From positions 1 through 37,922 of the forward strand of contig JAERRN010000076.1 in NCBI GenBank assembly GCA_016735445.1: DNA of 37,922 bases, read 5' to 3'. The notes beneath the pieces are model-generated. The model was not told the DNA's origin. It did not search any database and was given only the letters and a program-made list of their open reading frames with translations. The DNA is from Rickettsiales bacterium. GTDB taxonomy: Bacteria; Pseudomonadota; Alphaproteobacteria; Rickettsiales; Deianiraeaceae. Each line of letters starts with the position of its first letter. The stretch's first letter is position 1. Of the stretch, positions 1 through 34,953 are shown one piece after another. The position numbers and the translations under genes were made by a program.

Positions 1-84
1 TAAATATTATTTGATGGCAAATTATTATAAGTATAATAACCTTACAATGCCAGTTTTTGGCTATAGTAATATATGTAATATATA

Positions 85-405
85 AAAATTGTTTGGACTC
101 GGGGGGCAGAACCCGACGCCTCCACCAGAAAGATCTTGGGGGCGAATTAGGCTCGACAGGCAGGGATAGTATATTATTTTTACTGGGGAATGTTTTACCT
201 CGCGCGTTAGCGTAAACAAAATAAAAAGTAAATGGCACTATTGTTGCTAATAATGTAACGAAACTTGCTGATGCTGCTAAAGGTCTACGCGATGGAGTCG
301 TATCTGTGTTTCAAAACACAGTTACCTCTGCTGTTAGCTTAGCTGTAGCTTAGTTCAAGTGTTTTCATTAGGGTATGGATCTAGCCTTCTAATAGGTCGG
401 GGTTT
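85..405 (+). ncRNA. ssrA: Permuted two-piece transfer-messenger RNA (tmRNA); boundaries approximate
   Basis: Acceptor piece ends ...GGACTCGGGGGGCAGAACCCGACGCCTCCACCA (CCA at 125-127). Ten nt later the coding piece begins GGGGGCGAATTAGGCTCGACAGGCA (138 on), and GGGGGCG pairs with CGCCTCC. This order (3' acceptor half upstream of 5' half) is the alphaproteobacterial permuted arrangement. An open tag frame runs 246-353. Confidence 0.88.
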
Positions 406-436
406 AGGGTTTCCTGTCAACAGAAAACCCTATTTT
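406..436 (+). terminator. Rho-independent-type terminator after tmRNA
   Basis: AGGGTTTcCTGTcaACAGaAAACCCT hairpin followed by ATTTTAG. Confidence 0.65.
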
Positions 437-1019: not shown

Positions 1020-3455
1020 TTACTTCTTTAGCGTTGACTTCATAATATTTATTAGCGTTGCTTTAATCGCGTCAACGGTGTTGGCGGTGCTATTGTTATT
1101 TTTGTTAAAAAAACCTTTCTCCATTTTAACATTAATAATGCTATTCGGCGATATTTTTACACAACTGTTTTGTTTACTTGCTAAGTCAAGAAGTGCACTA
1201 ACGTTAATTAGGTTATTATTTGCAAACCAAATAGAGATAGTATAACCGCCAAGTTGTAGTTTTTTAATATTATACTTATAGCAAAAATCTCTTAGGGTAA
1301 TTATTTCTTCAATATTTTGTATTTTTATATTAATTTTACCAAAACGGTTTATCATCTCGTTATAAAAGCCCTCCAATTCATCTAAAGTTGCAATATTAGC
1401 AATTTTGCGGTACATTTGTATTCTAACCTGTAAAGACGATATATATTCTTCTGGTATATATATAGATCTGTCAATGTTAACCTCAGGAATATTTTTCGTT
1501 TCATTGCATAAAGAATTGCCTTTTTGTTGCCTAATGTCTTCGATAGCTCTATTTAGCAAGTCATAATACAAACCAACAGATATATGCTCAACTTTACCAG
1601 ATTGTTGTTTAGTAATTAAATTACCGCCCCCTCTTGTTTCTAAGTCAAGTTGTGCAATTTGAAACCCCGCACCAAACTCACTAAAGCTACGCATATGGTA
1701 TAAGCGGGACATTTTAGCTTTGTTTTGTAGGTCAATTTTTTCTATAAGCAAATAGCAGTTTCCTTGTTTGCTTCTTCTACCAACGCGACCCCTAATTTGA
1801 TGCAACTGTGACAAACCAAATAGGTTTGGCTTGTGTATAACCACAGTATTGCTGTAAGAGAAATCCATACCAGACGCAATGATTGTTGTTGCAACAATTA
1901 TATCGCACTCGTTTTTTTTAATTAAAAGGTTTGTGTCGTATATCTCTTTTGAGCTCATACCGCCATGTATTATAACAATGCGTTTGTTTGGTGTTATTTT
2001 ATCAATCTGGTGGTATAAATCTGCAATATATGCAATTTTTGGCGTTACAAAAAGAACCTGACCTTCCTCCTCGCATTCATGATTAATAAGCGATTTAATG
2101 ATGCTACTGTCAAACAGTATAATATTTGTTTTTGTTCCAATTCTATTATGTGGCGGGGTAGATATAACAGATATATCTTGTATACCAGAAACAGCCTTGT
2201 ATAATGTTCTTGGTATTGGCGTTGCAGATAGCGACAAATAATGCAAATTAGAGTATGACTCAAGTAGCAACTCTTTTTGCTCTACACCAAATAAATGCTC
2301 TTCATCGCACACAATCATGCCAAGGTTTTTATAAATAATTTTATTAGACAAAATAGAGCTAGTGCCAACAAGTATGTCTATTTTGCCATTTGCAACCTGA
2401 TTGATTATATCTTTTACTTGCGCTGTTTTTGTATTGCTACATAAAAAACCAACCGTAATACCAAAGCATTCTAAGCGATTTTTAATGCTTTCAAATTGCT
2501 GTTCCGCCAGCATTACGGTAGGGCATAAAAAAGTAACTTGAGAATACCCTAATTTAGCTATTTTCCCACATACCACTAAAAATATAGCTCGCATCGCAAC
2601 TTCTGTTTTGCCAAACCCAACATCGCCGCATATAATTCTATACATTGGCTTACCAGATTCAAGGTCGGTAAAAATATCAGATATCGCCTTAGACTGATCG
2701 GATGTTTCAACATATGTAAAAGAATTCTCTAGTTGTTCTAATAAATATGCCCGTTCAGCAACTTTGTATCTGGTAGCTTTTTCTAAGGTACGCTTGCCAG
2801 CAATATCTATTAATTTGTGAGCAATGCTGTCAATTTGTTTTTTTGCAGATTCTCTAAGTTTAACCCAAGATTGACCGCCAATTTTATCCAGCAATACATT
2901 ATCTGGGTTTTTAGAGTTATGGGCACATAAAGCATATATTTTTTCTACAGGGACATATATATTGCCGTTGCTATACTTTATTTTTAACAATTCGCAGGTT
3001 TGACCATGTATAGTTTTTATAACAGACTTTTCAAATATTCCAACACCATGTTCTATGTGTATAATAGGTTCTCCAAGTTTTAAATCGTTTAATGCGATCA
3101 TTAAATCTTGTTTATGTCCTTTATCTTTTTTATTATGCTTAAATTTACCATAATTTTGTATAGTAATAAGTTTGCTAGGTAAAAATATACACTGTTTAAT
3201 TTCAAACGAATTTTGCACGTGAAAGACACAAACCCATACCACTTTTGCTTTGCTAGCAAAAACTTGATCTGCAGAGTTAGCTATGTTGTACGGTACACTT
3301 TTGCTTTCTAAAAGCTTGCAAACCCACTGAATTGTTGCTGTATTTTTGCAACAAACTATAACCTTTTTATTAAACGAAATATTATCATTAATAAAGAGAA
3401 ATCTTTGCTCAAATGATACGGGGATAGATATATAATTAGGGACACCCTTAAACAT
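1020..3455 (-). CDS. mfd: Transcription-repair coupling factor Mfd, N-terminally shortened (811 aa)
   Basis: RID region GEPIIHIEHGVGIFEK, Walker A GDVGFGKTEVAMRA, DEEH box (CDEEHLFGVEQKE), RGRVGR motif, C-terminal TRCF (D7) domain; no UvrB-homology region at the N-terminus. Confidence 0.93.
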   Translation of the reverse strand: MFKGVPNYISIPVSFEQRFLFINDNISFNKKVIVCCKNTATIQWVCKLLESKSVPYNIANSADQVFASKAKVVWVCVFHVQNSFEIKQCIFLPSKLITIQNYGKFKHNKKDKGHKQDLMIALNDLKLGEPIIHIEHGVGIFEKSVIKTIHGQTCELLKIKYSNGNIYVPVEKIYALCAHNSKNPDNVLLDKIGGQSWVKLRESAKKQIDSIAHKLIDIAGKRTLEKATRYKVAERAYLLEQLENSFTYVETSDQSKAISDIFTDLESGKPMYRIICGDVGFGKTEVAMRAIFLVVCGKIAKLGYSQVTFLCPTVMLAEQQFESIKNRLECFGITVGFLCSNTKTAQVKDIINQVANGKIDILVGTSSILSNKIIYKNLGMIVCDEEHLFGVEQKELLLESYSNLHYLSLSATPIPRTLYKAVSGIQDISVISTPPHNRIGTKTNIILFDSSIIKSLINHECEEEGQVLFVTPKIAYIADLYHQIDKITPNKRIVIIHGGMSSKEIYDTNLLIKKNECDIIVATTIIASGMDFSYSNTVVIHKPNLFGLSQLHQIRGRVGRRSKQGNCYLLIEKIDLQNKAKMSRLYHMRSFSEFGAGFQIAQLDLETRGGGNLITKQQSGKVEHISVGLYYDLLNRAIEDIRQQKGNSLCNETKNIPEVNIDRSIYIPEEYISSLQVRIQMYRKIANIATLDELEGFYNEMINRFGKINIKIQNIEEIITLRDFCYKYNIKKLQLGGYTISIWFANNNLINVSALLDLASKQNSCVKISPNSIINVKMEKGFFNKNNNSTANTVDAIKATLINIMKSTLKK

Positions 3456-25628: not shown

Positions 25629-26560
25629 ACAATACCGCAATAGATAATTATTGTTTAACCTTTTATCTTGCACATACGCTATACATAACAACATTAATGC
25701 AACATAAAGCAAAAAAAACTAACCACTAAAAGATTAGAGAAGTTAAAACGCAAGAAGCTAAAGCAATATTAGAATATAAAAAATCTGTAAATTAACTTAA
25801 AATTAAAAGTTAACACCAAGCTTTAAAATTAATTGTTGAAGATTCTTATACAGAACTTAAAAAGTTAAACTTATTATTAAATAATAGCTGTAATTAAAAT
25901 TTTTTAATAAAGTACGGGTATTGCCAATTTGCAGCATCTGCACTTTAAATATAAATTTAGCTTAACTGTGTAACCTTTTAAACAATCTTATCTAACAAAT
26001 GCGTTTAAAATACAACAAGACAGCTACCCTGCTTTTATTTGCGCAATTGTCAGTTTACACATGGCAAAATAGGGCGATATTAGCGTTTGTTATAGGCAAT
26101 ACATTAGCCCACAACAATAAGGTAAAAATCTTGTTTCTCTGAAAATAATAAAAAAATATTTACGGTTATTGTTAGTTTTAAAAAGTTAAACTTTACACAT
26201 TGTTACATAATGGCATTAGTGACGCGGAGCGTGTTAATCTTCTTGGTTTTATTTTCTGTAAATATCTATCTGAAAAACGGTATATTTTTGCTAACAAACT
26301 CCTTAAAAGAGGACGACATTAAAGATTGCACCAATATTGCCAATGAAGGGGACAATATTGTCGTGTAAAAATTACACTAAGTTCATCAACCCGTAAGAAG
26401 CATAGGGCACAATAAGTTAATATAATAGGTTTTATAAGTCGTATTTAAAAATATTTGTTACAGTCTGATTGTATATTGTAAATTTCTTGCCTTTTTACAA
26501 TCAGTTATTGGGCTTTACTCTATTTTAGAGATACAGTTGTTATTTTATATATTAATAAAC

Positions 26561-27832
26561 ATGTCAGATGATAAATCTGTAAAGTCGATATTTAATTTTT
26601 TGTATAAATATACAAAAAATTCTAAACAAGAAAAAAAAAGTATTGGACTGGTAGCAGTGCAAAAGGAAATAGAAAACGAATTACTTTCTAACGATGTACA
26701 CCGTATTGTTGTTAACAAAATAATGATAGCATTAAAAAATTACCTAATAAACAGCGCGGTAATACAAAACGAAAGCTCAGAAGAGGTAGCTATTCGATCT
26801 TTCAGAAGTTTACTAATAAACTCCATGAAAGGATCTTCACGCGAAATAACAATTAAAAACGATAAATTGTGCGTTATTACAGTGTATGGTTTTCCCGGTG
26901 TAGGGAAAACAACATTTTGCGGAAAACTAGGGCAATACTTAATGAAAGAAAGGGATGGTGTAAAAATTGCCATTGTGTCATTGGACTATAAAAGAAAAGC
27001 AGGACACGAGCAATTAGAGGCGATATCTAAATCTATAGGTGCGCGCTTTATACATAATTCTAATGTTTCACCAAATAATACCGTGTCAGCATTAGAGTGT
27101 GCAATAAAAAAAGCAGAACATGACGGTAACAATGTTTTAATCATCGACACACCAGCATTAGATTTTAATTCTGCTGAGGAAGTTACAAATCTACAATTAA
27201 TACATGGCGTCATAAGTAACAAACTAGGTCCACAGCATAATTTTAATTTATTTGTTGTAGACGGTATGATGGGCAAAACATGCTATGAGGTCACAAGTAG
27301 GGTTAGGCAAATTTTACCAATCAACAGCATAGCAATGTCAAAAGGGGTTAGCAATTTTGGAATTGGCTCTGTAATAAATGCGCGGTTTGGTTTAAGGAAG
27401 CCAATTTTATATGTTTCTTTTTCAGAGAGATTGAGCGATTTACAGAAATTTAATTTTTTAGATTTTGCAACAGATTTAATAAACAACGTTACGCGCATTA
27501 ATAAAATTGGACAAAGTAAAGAAGATAGGTCATTTAGTAACTTTTATGAGTTAAAAAAGCACTTAGTAGAATCAAAATCGTTAGAGAGTATTTCGCTTTT
27601 AACATCAAGCATTAAAGATAAAAAAGAGAGCAAGCTAAAGGCGATGGCTTTAAATTTCTTTTTAGAAGCTCAAATAGCAATTATAGACTCTATGACAATT
27701 CAAGAACGATTAAGCCCAAGTATAATAAACGACTCAAGAGCAAAAAGAATAGCAAATGGCTCTGGCGCAACGGTAAGTCAAGTGACAATTTTGTGTTGTC
27801 AGGTAAATAAAAAAAAATATAAAAATTGTTAA
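26561..27832 (+). CDS. ffh: Highly divergent signal recognition particle protein Ffh
   Basis: P-loop VYGFPGVGKTTFCGKLG; LFVVDGMMGKTCYEV aligns to the Ffh DAMTGQ region; C-terminus AIIDSMTIQERLSPSIINDSRAKRIANGSGATVSQVTILCCQ matches the Ffh M-domain core. Track start 26537. Confidence 0.85.
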   Translation: MSDDKSVKSIFNFLYKYTKNSKQEKKSIGLVAVQKEIENELLSNDVHRIVVNKIMIALKNYLINSAVIQNESSEEVAIRSFRSLLINSMKGSSREITIKNDKLCVITVYGFPGVGKTTFCGKLGQYLMKERDGVKIAIVSLDYKRKAGHEQLEAISKSIGARFIHNSNVSPNNTVSALECAIKKAEHDGNNVLIIDTPALDFNSAEEVTNLQLIHGVISNKLGPQHNFNLFVVDGMMGKTCYEVTSRVRQILPINSIAMSKGVSNFGIGSVINARFGLRKPILYVSFSERLSDLQKFNFLDFATDLINNVTRINKIGQSKEDRSFSNFYELKKHLVESKSLESISLLTSSIKDKKESKLKAMALNFFLEAQIAIIDSMTIQERLSPSIINDSRAKRIANGSGATVSQVTILCCQVNKKKYKNC

Positions 27833-27913
27833 AATTACTTTAAAGTATTGCACAACATATAAAGCAATATACACTACTAAAGTTAGCTAGGGTTTATTTT
27901 CTATTTCTGTACA

Positions 27914-32151: not shown

Positions 32152-32178
32152 TCAAAAATATCAAAAATATCAAAAATG
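32152..32178 (+). repeat. Three tandem 9-nt units (TCAAAAATR) containing the secA start codon
   Basis: TCAAAAATA TCAAAAATA TCAAAAATG; the final ATG (32176-32178) is the annotated start. Confidence 0.9.
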
Positions 32179-34953
32179 CTTCTATCTTTATGTAAAAAAG
32201 TATATAGAAAAGCATTTAGCGGAAGAAATGGCAAGGCAATTGCTAATTGTAGAAAAATAGTTAGCACTGTAAACAGCCTAGAGCCATACATATGCAAAAT
32301 GAGCGACGATGAGCTTAAAGACCAAACAAAAATACTAAAAAATAGACTACAACAAGGTGAGTTACTAGACGATATTTTACCAGATGCTTTTGCCGTTGTT
32401 AGGGAAACAGCAAAACGACTACTAAACATGAGACATTACGACGTACAGTTGATAGGTGGCATTTTACTACATAGAGGTTGCGTTGTGGAAATGAAAACCG
32501 GCGAAGGTAAAACTTTATCAGCAACTTTACCAATTTATTTAAACGCACTTACAACAAATGTTCACATAATAACTGTAAACGACTACTTAGCAAAGCGAGA
32601 TTACGACTGGATGGGTAGAATATTTGATTTTCTAGGTTTAAAAGTTTCTTATGTTATAAGTAAAAGCAACCTTGAAGAAAGAGCAAATGCCTACAGTGGG
32701 GACGTTGTGTATGTAACAAATTCAGAAATAGGATTTGATTACCTAAGGGACAATATGCAGATGGATCGATCAAAAATATTATTAGGTGAAAGCAGTTTTC
32801 AGTATGCAATTATTGATGAAATAGATTCTATTTTAATAGACGAAGCAAGAACTCCGCTGATAATTTCTGGACCAAACAAAACAAGCTCAGATTTATATTT
32901 AGCAATAGATAAAATTGCCAGAAAAATTAATGATGACACATTATTTATTATAGATGAAAAAAGAAACACCGTTCAGTTAACAGAAGAAGGGGAAGATTTT
33001 GTTGAAGCTAAATTAAAAGCTGCCGAGTTGATAAAACAAAACTCTAGCCTATACGACACGGACGCATGTGCCTTACTTAACCATGTTTTACAGTCTTTAA
33101 AAGCGCACCATTGTTTTAAAAAAGACAAAGACTATATTATTGTAAACGATAGCGTGATGCTAATAGACGAGTTTACTGGTAGAGTTGCAGAGGGCAGAAG
33201 GTACTCTGGCGGATTACATCAAGCATTAGAGGCAAAAGAAAAAGTTCAAATCGGTAGCGAAAACAAAACATTAGCATCCGTAACTTATCAAAATTTTTTC
33301 AGGATGTATAAAAAACTATCTGGCATGACAGGTACGGCAATGACGGAGGCAAATGAATTTTACAATATATATGAGTTAGAAGTATTTAGCGTTCCAACTT
33401 TTACTTCGATAGCACGAAAAGACCATCAAGATTTTGTTTTTAGAACAGAGAAAGAGAAGTTAAATTATATTTGCAACTTAGTAAAAAAAAGAAACAAAGA
33501 AGGTCAACCTATTTTAATAGGTACTGTAAGTATACAGAAATCAGAAATATACTCATCTCATTTGCTTGCAATTGGCGTTAAGCACAATGTATTAAATGCA
33601 AAATACCACGAAAAAGAAGCACAAATTATAGCAGAAGCGGGCAGAAAGAAGTCGGTAACAATAGCAACCAATATGGCAGGTAGGGGGACAGATATTTTAC
33701 TTGGCGGTAGTATAGATAGTAAAATTCTTTTTGCGATCGACGGTATAACAGACACAAAAGAGATCACCAATATCACTGAAAAAATAAGACAAGAGCATGA
33801 GGTGGAAAGGGCAGAAGTGGTTCGCTTGGGAGGTCTATTTGTAATTGGCTCAGAAAGGCACGAAAGTAGGAGGGTTGACAATCAGCTACAAGGTCGCGCA
33901 GGTAGATTAGGCGATCCAGGGATATCGCAATTTTTTCTTTGCCTGCAAGACGATTTGTTACGTGTATTTGGCGGTGACAGGTTGGACGCGGTTTTGCGTA
34001 GGTTAGGTTTAAAAGAAGGTGAACCAATGCAACATGCTATGCTCGACAATGTAATAGAGAGATCTCAAAAGAAACTTGAAAACTTCCATTACGAGATTCG
34101 TAAAAATATTGTTCGTTATGATGACATTATAAACGAGCAACGAAAACTAATCTATCAACAAAGAAACTTTTTTTTAAAAGAGAATAGTTCCGATATTGCA
34201 ATTAAAAAAGTAATTCATAATTTAAACAATTCATTAATCGGTGACTTAGTTAAAGAGCAGGGCTTCGTGTCTCATGATGTAATTATTAGCGAATTGCATT
34301 CTGTATACAAAAATGGATTCTTAAAAAATATTCCAAACCTACTGCTAAATTGTGACAATGAAATTACATTAGATAACTTACCTCAAACTGTAAAAATTGT
34401 AGATAAATTGATTTTTGACAGTTACAGACAAAAAGTTGCAAGTATTAGTGACGGTGTTAAAAAAGTAGAACAATTTGTATTATTAAATAGTTTGGACTCA
34501 TGTTGGCAAGAGCATCTAAACAAAGCTTCCCATATTAGGGAAGGGATACATTTAAGGACATACAGTAACAAAGATCCGTTTACAGAGTATAAAAAGGAAA
34601 TGTTTCTTGCGTTAGAAGAAACGTTCTATAATTTCGATTTCTGCGTTGTTCAGCATCTTATAAGTATAGAGGTTGACAGACGTAGTGAGCAAAACTATCT
34701 TCACGTAGCAGAAAACCAGTTACAAGATGGTAAAATTGAACAAACATATGGTAATATCGTTTCCTCAAAGTCAATTCCGTTAAAAAGTAATACAGATACT
34801 ACCGCATTAATTGGCAGCGGCAATTATCCTCATGTTATTAACCGTCAAAACATAACTAATAGATACATCGGTAAAAAAGTAGCTCGTCAAGGTCGTAATG
34901 AAAAATGCTCTTGTAACAGCGGTAAGAAATATAAAAATTGCCATGGTAAATAA
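32176..34953 (+). CDS. secA: Preprotein translocase ATPase SecA
   Basis: MKTGEGKTLSATLPIYLNAL, IDEIDSILIDEARTPLIISG, MAGRGTDILLGG, C-terminal zinc motif CSCNSGKKYKNCHG. Confidence 0.98.
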   Translation: MLLSLCKKVYRKAFSGRNGKAIANCRKIVSTVNSLEPYICKMSDDELKDQTKILKNRLQQGELLDDILPDAFAVVRETAKRLLNMRHYDVQLIGGILLHRGCVVEMKTGEGKTLSATLPIYLNALTTNVHIITVNDYLAKRDYDWMGRIFDFLGLKVSYVISKSNLEERANAYSGDVVYVTNSEIGFDYLRDNMQMDRSKILLGESSFQYAIIDEIDSILIDEARTPLIISGPNKTSSDLYLAIDKIARKINDDTLFIIDEKRNTVQLTEEGEDFVEAKLKAAELIKQNSSLYDTDACALLNHVLQSLKAHHCFKKDKDYIIVNDSVMLIDEFTGRVAEGRRYSGGLHQALEAKEKVQIGSENKTLASVTYQNFFRMYKKLSGMTGTAMTEANEFYNIYELEVFSVPTFTSIARKDHQDFVFRTEKEKLNYICNLVKKRNKEGQPILIGTVSIQKSEIYSSHLLAIGVKHNVLNAKYHEKEAQIIAEAGRKKSVTIATNMAGRGTDILLGGSIDSKILFAIDGITDTKEITNITEKIRQEHEVERAEVVRLGGLFVIGSERHESRRVDNQLQGRAGRLGDPGISQFFLCLQDDLLRVFGGDRLDAVLRRLGLKEGEPMQHAMLDNVIERSQKKLENFHYEIRKNIVRYDDIINEQRKLIYQQRNFFLKENSSDIAIKKVIHNLNNSLIGDLVKEQGFVSHDVIISELHSVYKNGFLKNIPNLLLNCDNEITLDNLPQTVKIVDKLIFDSYRQKVASISDGVKKVEQFVLLNSLDSCWQEHLNKASHIREGIHLRTYSNKDPFTEYKKEMFLALEETFYNFDFCVVQHLISIEVDRRSEQNYLHVAENQLQDGKIEQTYGNIVSSKSIPLKSNTDTTALIGSGNYPHVINRQNITNRYIGKKVARQGRNEKCSCNSGKKYKNCHGK

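Follow-up and report, generated by a model that had tools for sequence, protein, structure and literature searches.

Degenerate GTPase motifs in the only Ffh found in a Rickettsiales genome: a probable relaxation of the SRP cycle

Ffh is a near-universal protein-targeting enzyme. Few cellular features are as strongly conserved as the pair of SRP GTPases, the twin active site that they form and the tetraloop of 4.5S RNA. The need for two-sided hydrolysis rests on laboratory mutants. In the stretch of 37,922 nucleotides analysed here (the window), which comes from a Rickettsiales bacterium, a first-pass annotation had reported an ffh gene with degenerate G3 and G4 motifs at 26561-27832 (+), and had proposed an altered nucleotide specificity, an SRP that no longer cycles normally, or a protein in decay. 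This raises the question whether the gene encodes the working Ffh of its genome and how such a protein would take part in a targeting cycle.

The gene is an intact ATG-initiated open reading frame of 423 aa, with a possible alternative start (TTG) upstream at 26537. It was the sole ffh found by profile searches in the window genome (G000, genus g1; a MAG of 958 kb in 81 contigs, 83% complete, 32% GC), in which one locus matched PF02978 and two matched PF00448, these being ffh and ftsY. The second, canonical copy that the first-pass annotation had considered, and that would make this one a paralogue, was not found when the contigs of this 83%-complete genome were searched. A scan of viral contigs gave no match. 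The best family match of the protein was TIGR00959 (ffh; 6.7e-50), aligned over residues 12-419, and its score of 170 bits lies below the curated NCBI cut-off of 473 bits. Pfam recognized the SRP54 GTPase domain (PF00448, 3.6e-31) and the signal-peptide-binding domain (PF02978, 2.3e-13), and the N domain marginally (PF02881, E 0.09). The protein thus has the N-G-M order of Ffh/SRP54, and it aligned with Ffh of E. coli (PDB 2xxa chain A) with an E value of 3.5e-27. The gene stands alone between low-GC spacers (26366-26560 and 27833-27913) and adjoins a GNAT acetyltransferase gene and glpX; rpsP, the usual neighbour of ffh, does not figure in the list of open frames immediately downstream.

In the G domain, the P-loop (G1) GFPGVGKTT at 26888-26914 (+) has an intact GxxGxGKT, as the first-pass annotation had stated, and the Gln of GLQG next to it (Q112, the equivalent of the trans-acting Q107) is replaced by a Pro. 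The insertion loop (IBD/G2; 26984-27016 (+)) reads DYKRKAGHEQL in place of the YRPAA-type motif, the Pro and the second Ala of RPAA being changed. The catalytic D142, R145 and Q151, the equivalents of D135, R138 and Q144 of T. aquaticus, are nonetheless kept. At 27146-27160 (+) the canonical G3 motif DTAGR has become DTPAL, in which the Asp and Thr are retained and the equivalents of G190 and R191 are gone. The canonical DSxxGQ is DGMMGK without the Gln (27260-27277 (+)), and the G4 and GG region, canonically TKLDGDARGG, is SKGVSNFGIG (27338-27367 (+)), with the G4 Asp changed to Val and the first Gly to Ile. As the alignment with E. coli Ffh placed DTPAL on DTAGR and SKGVSNFGIG on TKVDGDARGG, the replacements described earlier were borne out; the losses at Q112, at the first Gly of DARGG and at GQ (now GK) had gone unremarked. 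Among the features of SRP-type (SIMIBI) GTPases, the window protein consequently possesses the P-loop and the D..R...Q of the insertion box, and it lacks both G3 DTAGR and G4 [TS][KR]xD (SKGV). The composite-site residues that are preserved in its G domain are the P-loop, D142, R145, Q151 and the G3 Asp (D196). Neither the alignment nor a string search revealed displaced equivalents of G3 or G4 elsewhere in the protein. The sole other [ST]KxD, SKED at residues 319-322, was rejected because it sits in the linker beyond the G domain, and a frameshift artefact was rejected because a single frame carries the alignment with E. coli Ffh through the strands and helices on either side of both motifs. 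An AlphaFold model built with five sequences had a mean pLDDT of 52, which is too poor for a check of the nucleotide site.

The distribution of the losses was determined by aligning the window Ffh with that of 17 other genomes of its GTDB family (7 genera, g1-g7) and of 24 outgroups of the same order, and by scoring the 112 columns that are each invariant in at least 23 of the 24 outgroups. The window protein kept 15 of 17 such residues in the M domain, 7 of 11 around the P-loop and 6 of 9 in the insertion loop; it kept 5 of 15 in the closing loop, 4 of 18 in the N domain, 3 of 13 around G4, 1 of 9 around G3 and none of the 10 in the linker and finger loop. The contrast between the M domain and the remainder of the protein (29 of 95) is significant (Fisher p 1e-5). 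Identity to the outgroups followed the same pattern (N 20%, G 24%, M core 42%). Residue loss in the window Ffh is therefore selective: the M domain, the P-loop and the Asp, Arg and Gln of the insertion loop are spared. The well-kept M-domain core at 27671-27802 (+), which the first-pass annotation had rightly called recognizable, includes SRAKRIANGSGATVSQV (27734-27784) and the 4.5S RNA-binding motif SRAKRIANGSG. The Met-rich finger loop and tail of Ffh/SRP54 are both missing: the linker and finger-loop region (27548-27619 (+)) has no canonical KKMGGM..LPG, and the truncated C-terminus (27803-27832 (+)), about half the usual length, contains no Met beyond the RNA-binding motif, compared with 1-19 in the outgroups. 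The absence of this tail, already pointed out in the first-pass annotation, is shared by g2 and g7.

The partner GTPase, which the same annotation had advised to inspect for compensating changes, showed a parallel one. The one ftsY found in the window genome (contig G000:C34) encodes DTPGY for DTAGR, whereas TKVD, the P-loop GxNGSGKT and D..R...Q are kept; the Gly of DARGG at the half-site position is altered as well (QKAG). The Arg latch is hence missing from both Ffh and FtsY in this genome. Most FtsY proteins of the family retain DTAGR or DTSGR together with TKxD; the exceptions include G002 (DTPGI and SKFE) and G004 (DLPGL and SKFE).

A search for 4.5S RNA, likewise advised, yielded one candidate in the window genome (G000:C28:7593-7690). 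It scored 35.8 bits with the Rfam model, under the gathering score of 40, and 54 and 43 bits (E 9e-9 and 5e-10) with two family models that include it, and it has the hallmark core CTGGTCAGG...AAGCAGCCATA. The core helices covary across the family: in a test limited to the 6-pair core, the outer structure being poor in the first RNA alignment, 93% of the cells were paired and the covariation exceeded that of each of 500 shuffles and of every slid control. Outgroups with a cleanly located core carry a GNRA tetraloop (GAAA, GAGA) at the apex of the RNA, and g4, g6 and g7 likewise have a GNRA loop there. The apical loop of the window genome reads UUUU-AUUG-AAAA, so that the GNRA tetraloop is lost, and it is replaced in all seven g2 genomes by UUAU, UUUU, UAUU, a GGAAU pentaloop or a U-rich loop (loci L109-L112 and L128-L130, with L003, in these two genera). 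Despite this replacement the internal loops that bind Ffh are kept in both. The GNRA loop is reported to contact FtsY and to stabilize the early complex (cited in PMC5115805).

In two genomes, G002 (a single 1.2-Mb contig) and G004, no credible 4.5S RNA was detected with the Rfam model or the two family-built models, and the M-domain RNA motif of their Ffh is degenerate (DRKKEIANLA and DKKKKIATIL; 8-9 of 17 invariants kept). The genes of G002:C1 (L036, L142) and of G004 (L038, L057) combine this degenerate motif with an FtsY that has SKFE and lacks the G3 Arg. Both hallmarks of the RNA-less SRP class (cpSRP54/mtFfh type), the missing RNA and the eroded motif, are found in G002, and in G004 as far as it is assembled; the window genome, in which RNA and motif are both present, does not belong to that class. 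The two sister genera, g3 and g5, are on these sequences candidates for an RNA-free bacterial SRP. In a third genome (G006) no 4.5S RNA was found with the same models, its RNA motif being intact and its assembly fragmented. Weak candidates in G004 and G006 were rejected for want of the conserved GGTCAG/AGCAGCC core; the one in G004 also falls within a coding frame.

What had escaped the first-pass annotation is that the erosion is graded and extends over the whole family. D[TS]AGR and the G4 Asp are constant in the 24 outgroups. The G3 Arg of Ffh is missing in 16 of the 18 family genomes (6 of 7 genera) and retained solely in g4 (G003, G008). The G4 Asp is a Glu (TKxE) in nine of the 18 (G001, G005, G009, G010, G012-G016) and a Val in the window protein. 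At the Gln of GLQG, which every outgroup retains, 14 of the 18 family members carry P, N, H, Y or S instead, and in one member (G017) the Asp and Arg of the insertion loop are both gone. The P-loop is intact in all 18, each of which, including a single-contig genome, has one ffh with an open frame. To judge from this alignment, the window Ffh is the extreme end of a graded, family-wide series and no private oddity. In a tree of Ffh and FtsY combined, g4, whose motifs are canonical, and g6 branched early and g1, g2, g7 and (g3+g5) formed one clade (100/99), within which the order is unsettled, the branches being long and the details unsure; the branch of the window genome measured 1.61. A simple history would begin with the loss of the Ffh G3 Arg after g4 had split off and the trimming of the Met tail in g1/g2/g7/(g3+g5); the tetraloop would then have been lost in g1 and g2, the G4 Asp outright in g1 and the RNA in g3+g5.

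Genome reduction alone was rejected as the cause, since Ffh of other alphaproteobacterial genomes of 0.6-1.0 Mb matched with E values of 1e-141 to 1e-169, compared with 2e-49 for the window protein. Generally fast evolution of the genome was rejected as well: its SecA is 44-49% identical to most same-order SecA proteins, whereas its Ffh is about 24% identical to those of the outgroups, whose own mean identity is 57.5%. The acceleration is thus stronger in SRP than in SecA. The window SecA (32176-34950) has a C-terminal SEC-C tail; in G002, G004, G009, G011 and G017 the SecA match stops around query residue 831-839, and the tail is seemingly missing. In a class-wide sample 332 of 385 genomes passed the ffh cut-off. 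The Ffh match was absent or very weak in G070, G201 and G378 (family f45), G102, G226, G321 and G397 (f77) and G121, G240 and G410 (f96), some of which are 97-100% complete; true absence is not implied because the screen is lossy, as it also missed G391, other members of whose family match normally.

These results lead us to lean, on sequence grounds, towards an Ffh-RNA particle that still works, with a relaxed or almost inactive GTPase site of its own, and that leaves most of the cycle to FtsY. The targeting machine would probably survive with a changed or one-sided energy cycle. The window gene would be the working Ffh of its genome, neither a paralogue nor a dead gene. Its M domain would still bind 4.5S RNA and signal sequences, and its NG domain would build a composite site with FtsY by means of the P-loop and the Asp, Arg and Gln of the insertion loop. 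The nucleotide site of Ffh itself is predicted to have lost base selectivity with the G4 Asp (now Val) and the Arg latch with the G3 Arg (now Leu). The cycle would then rest on FtsY, which retains TKVD and the P-loop, although its Arg latch is lost (DTPGY). Among E. coli single mutants, FtsY R386(191) still assembles into the complex but activates the GTPase at neither site, Ffh D251(248)N has a 200-fold lower affinity for GTP and yet stimulates FtsY if XTP is supplied, and mutants in G454/G455 of the DARGG motif are reduced to half-site hydrolysis; Q107 of T. aquaticus Ffh, the Gln of GLQG, contacts the nucleotide of the partner (PMC517823). As the window Ffh is changed at all three mutant positions, binding at its site would be weak and unselective for the base, guanine-specific binding would be mostly the task of FtsY, and the heterodimer would form nucleotide-dependently, organized mainly by the GTP of FtsY, with an activation that is weak and either slow or one-sided. 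The 4.5S RNA would presumably no longer speed up docking through a GNRA loop. Since the loss of a single Arg191 in E. coli blocks both sites, the double loss may even leave no useful hydrolysis at all. Suppressors of SRP loss in E. coli link targeting to the rate of translation (PMC7844537), and a cell that grows slowly may put up with a slow cycle. The window system would in this way mark the extreme of a graded relaxation that the SRP GTPase cycle has undergone across the family. It is conceivable, though we would not presume it, that the whole family has a one-sided or nearly dead GTPase pair, with the Arg latch of both partners and the 4.5S tetraloop given up in the window genome and the RNA in two sister genera. 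If this were true, the family would hold natural intermediates between the canonical SRP and a protein-only, GTPase-poor bacterial targeting factor.

A different explanation is that Ffh has become a pseudo-GTPase that serves as a nucleotide-independent adaptor, its complex with FtsY being held and released by contacts with RNA, lipid, ribosome or translocon. The joint disappearance of the G4 Asp, the G3 Gly and Arg, Q107 and part of GG would be in line with this, as would the lost Arg of FtsY, the lost GNRA loop and the member of the family (G017) that is even without the Asp and Arg of the insertion loop. Nothing, however, would oblige a pseudo-GTPase to preserve the P-loop, the G3 Asp or the catalytic residues D142, R145 and Q151, all of them present in the window protein, and the constancy of the P-loop throughout the family also argues against it; we consider such an adaptor unlikely.

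Decay, in which the gene is no longer needed and its frame is open by chance or recency, had been put forward in the first-pass annotation. It would agree with the long branch, the very low identity of the N and G domains and the reduced genome. Against it, the frame is open over 423-464 codons, whereas at the composition of this genome a random codon would be a stop in about 8% of cases; the invariants of the M domain are selectively kept and so is the 4.5S gene; and ffh is open in every genome of the family. Moreover, dN/dS of Ffh was 0.049 (G012/G016) and 0.057 (G013/G015), similar to FtsY in the same pairs, values that refer to relatives with eroded motifs (DTAGI/TKTE or DTAGV/TKTE), the window genome being the sole g1 genome in the sample. 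Ffh of relatives with eroded motifs is under strong purifying selection, which argues against simple decay, and we regard decay as quite improbable. The altered GTPase cycling that had been proposed beside it is better supported, given the accompanying changes in FtsY and in the tetraloop of 4.5S RNA.

A changed nucleotide specificity, by which the G4 Asp to Val replacement would let Ffh use another NTP such as ATP, finds some encouragement in the intact P-loop and in the role of the Ffh G4 Asp in setting guanine specificity, D251N switching it to XTP (PMC517823). The G4 residue nevertheless varies across the family (V, E, D) without a visible convergent new pocket, and neighbouring residues are gone as well, which looks like relaxation rather than retuning, so that we hold this to be very improbable. 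That a canonical ffh lies in the unassembled 17% of this genome, 83% complete in 81 contigs, and the window gene is a paralogue is scarcely credible given one ffh in each of the 18 family genomes, the single-contig genome included, with the G3 Arg lost in 16.

The relaxed particle that we favour can be compared with known systems. With the E. coli/T. aquaticus type (TIGR00959) it shares the N-G-M layout, the P-loop, the D/R/Q of the insertion loop, the RNA-binding motif of the M domain and, in its genome, FtsY and 4.5S RNA as partners; it differs in DTPAL, SKGV, the Pro at Q107, NFGIG, the lack of an MGGM finger loop, of a Met-rich tail and of a GNRA loop in 4.5S, and in its 170 against 473 bits. 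Chloroplast SRP (cpSRP54 and cpSRP RNA of mosses, charophytes and seed plants) has also been relaxed stepwise: according to PMC5115805 and PMC8321541, the Physcomitrella chloroplast SRP RNA has an apical loop other than a tetraloop, and other chloroplast lineages have lost SRP RNA together with the RNA-binding motif of SRP54. This joint loss, established for chloroplasts and inferred for mitochondria (PMC8321541), matches the sister genera g3 and g5. The window SRP differs from the chloroplast one in being bacterial, in having no cpSRP43 and in being changed mainly in its GTPase motifs, a loss that the consulted passages on chloroplast SRP do not report. It resembles the mtFfh/mtFtsY of some protists in its divergent bacterial-type Ffh; in mtFfh the RNA is absent and the RNA motifs are mutated, as in g3 and g5 (PMC8321541), whereas the window protein keeps its motif, its genome keeps the RNA, and it is bacterial and not organellar. 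No report of such bacteria was found in the open-licence papers that were searched.

Changes comparable to those of the laboratory mutants have here been made by nature, in graded combinations, and purifying selection acts on the gene concerned wherever it was measurable. The family provides ready-made sets of protein and RNA that bear on which residues are dispensable to the cycle, on whether Ffh must hydrolyse GTP, and on the loss of RNA from SRP outside organelles.

Two further features of the window may be mentioned. An Mfd-like protein of 810 aa is encoded at 1026-3455 (-); its match to the mfd model (907 positions) starts at position 212, and the protein seemingly lacks the N-terminal UvrB-like part. 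At the end of the contig, 10-434 (+), lies an alphaproteobacterial permuted two-piece tmRNA (RF01849, RF04321).
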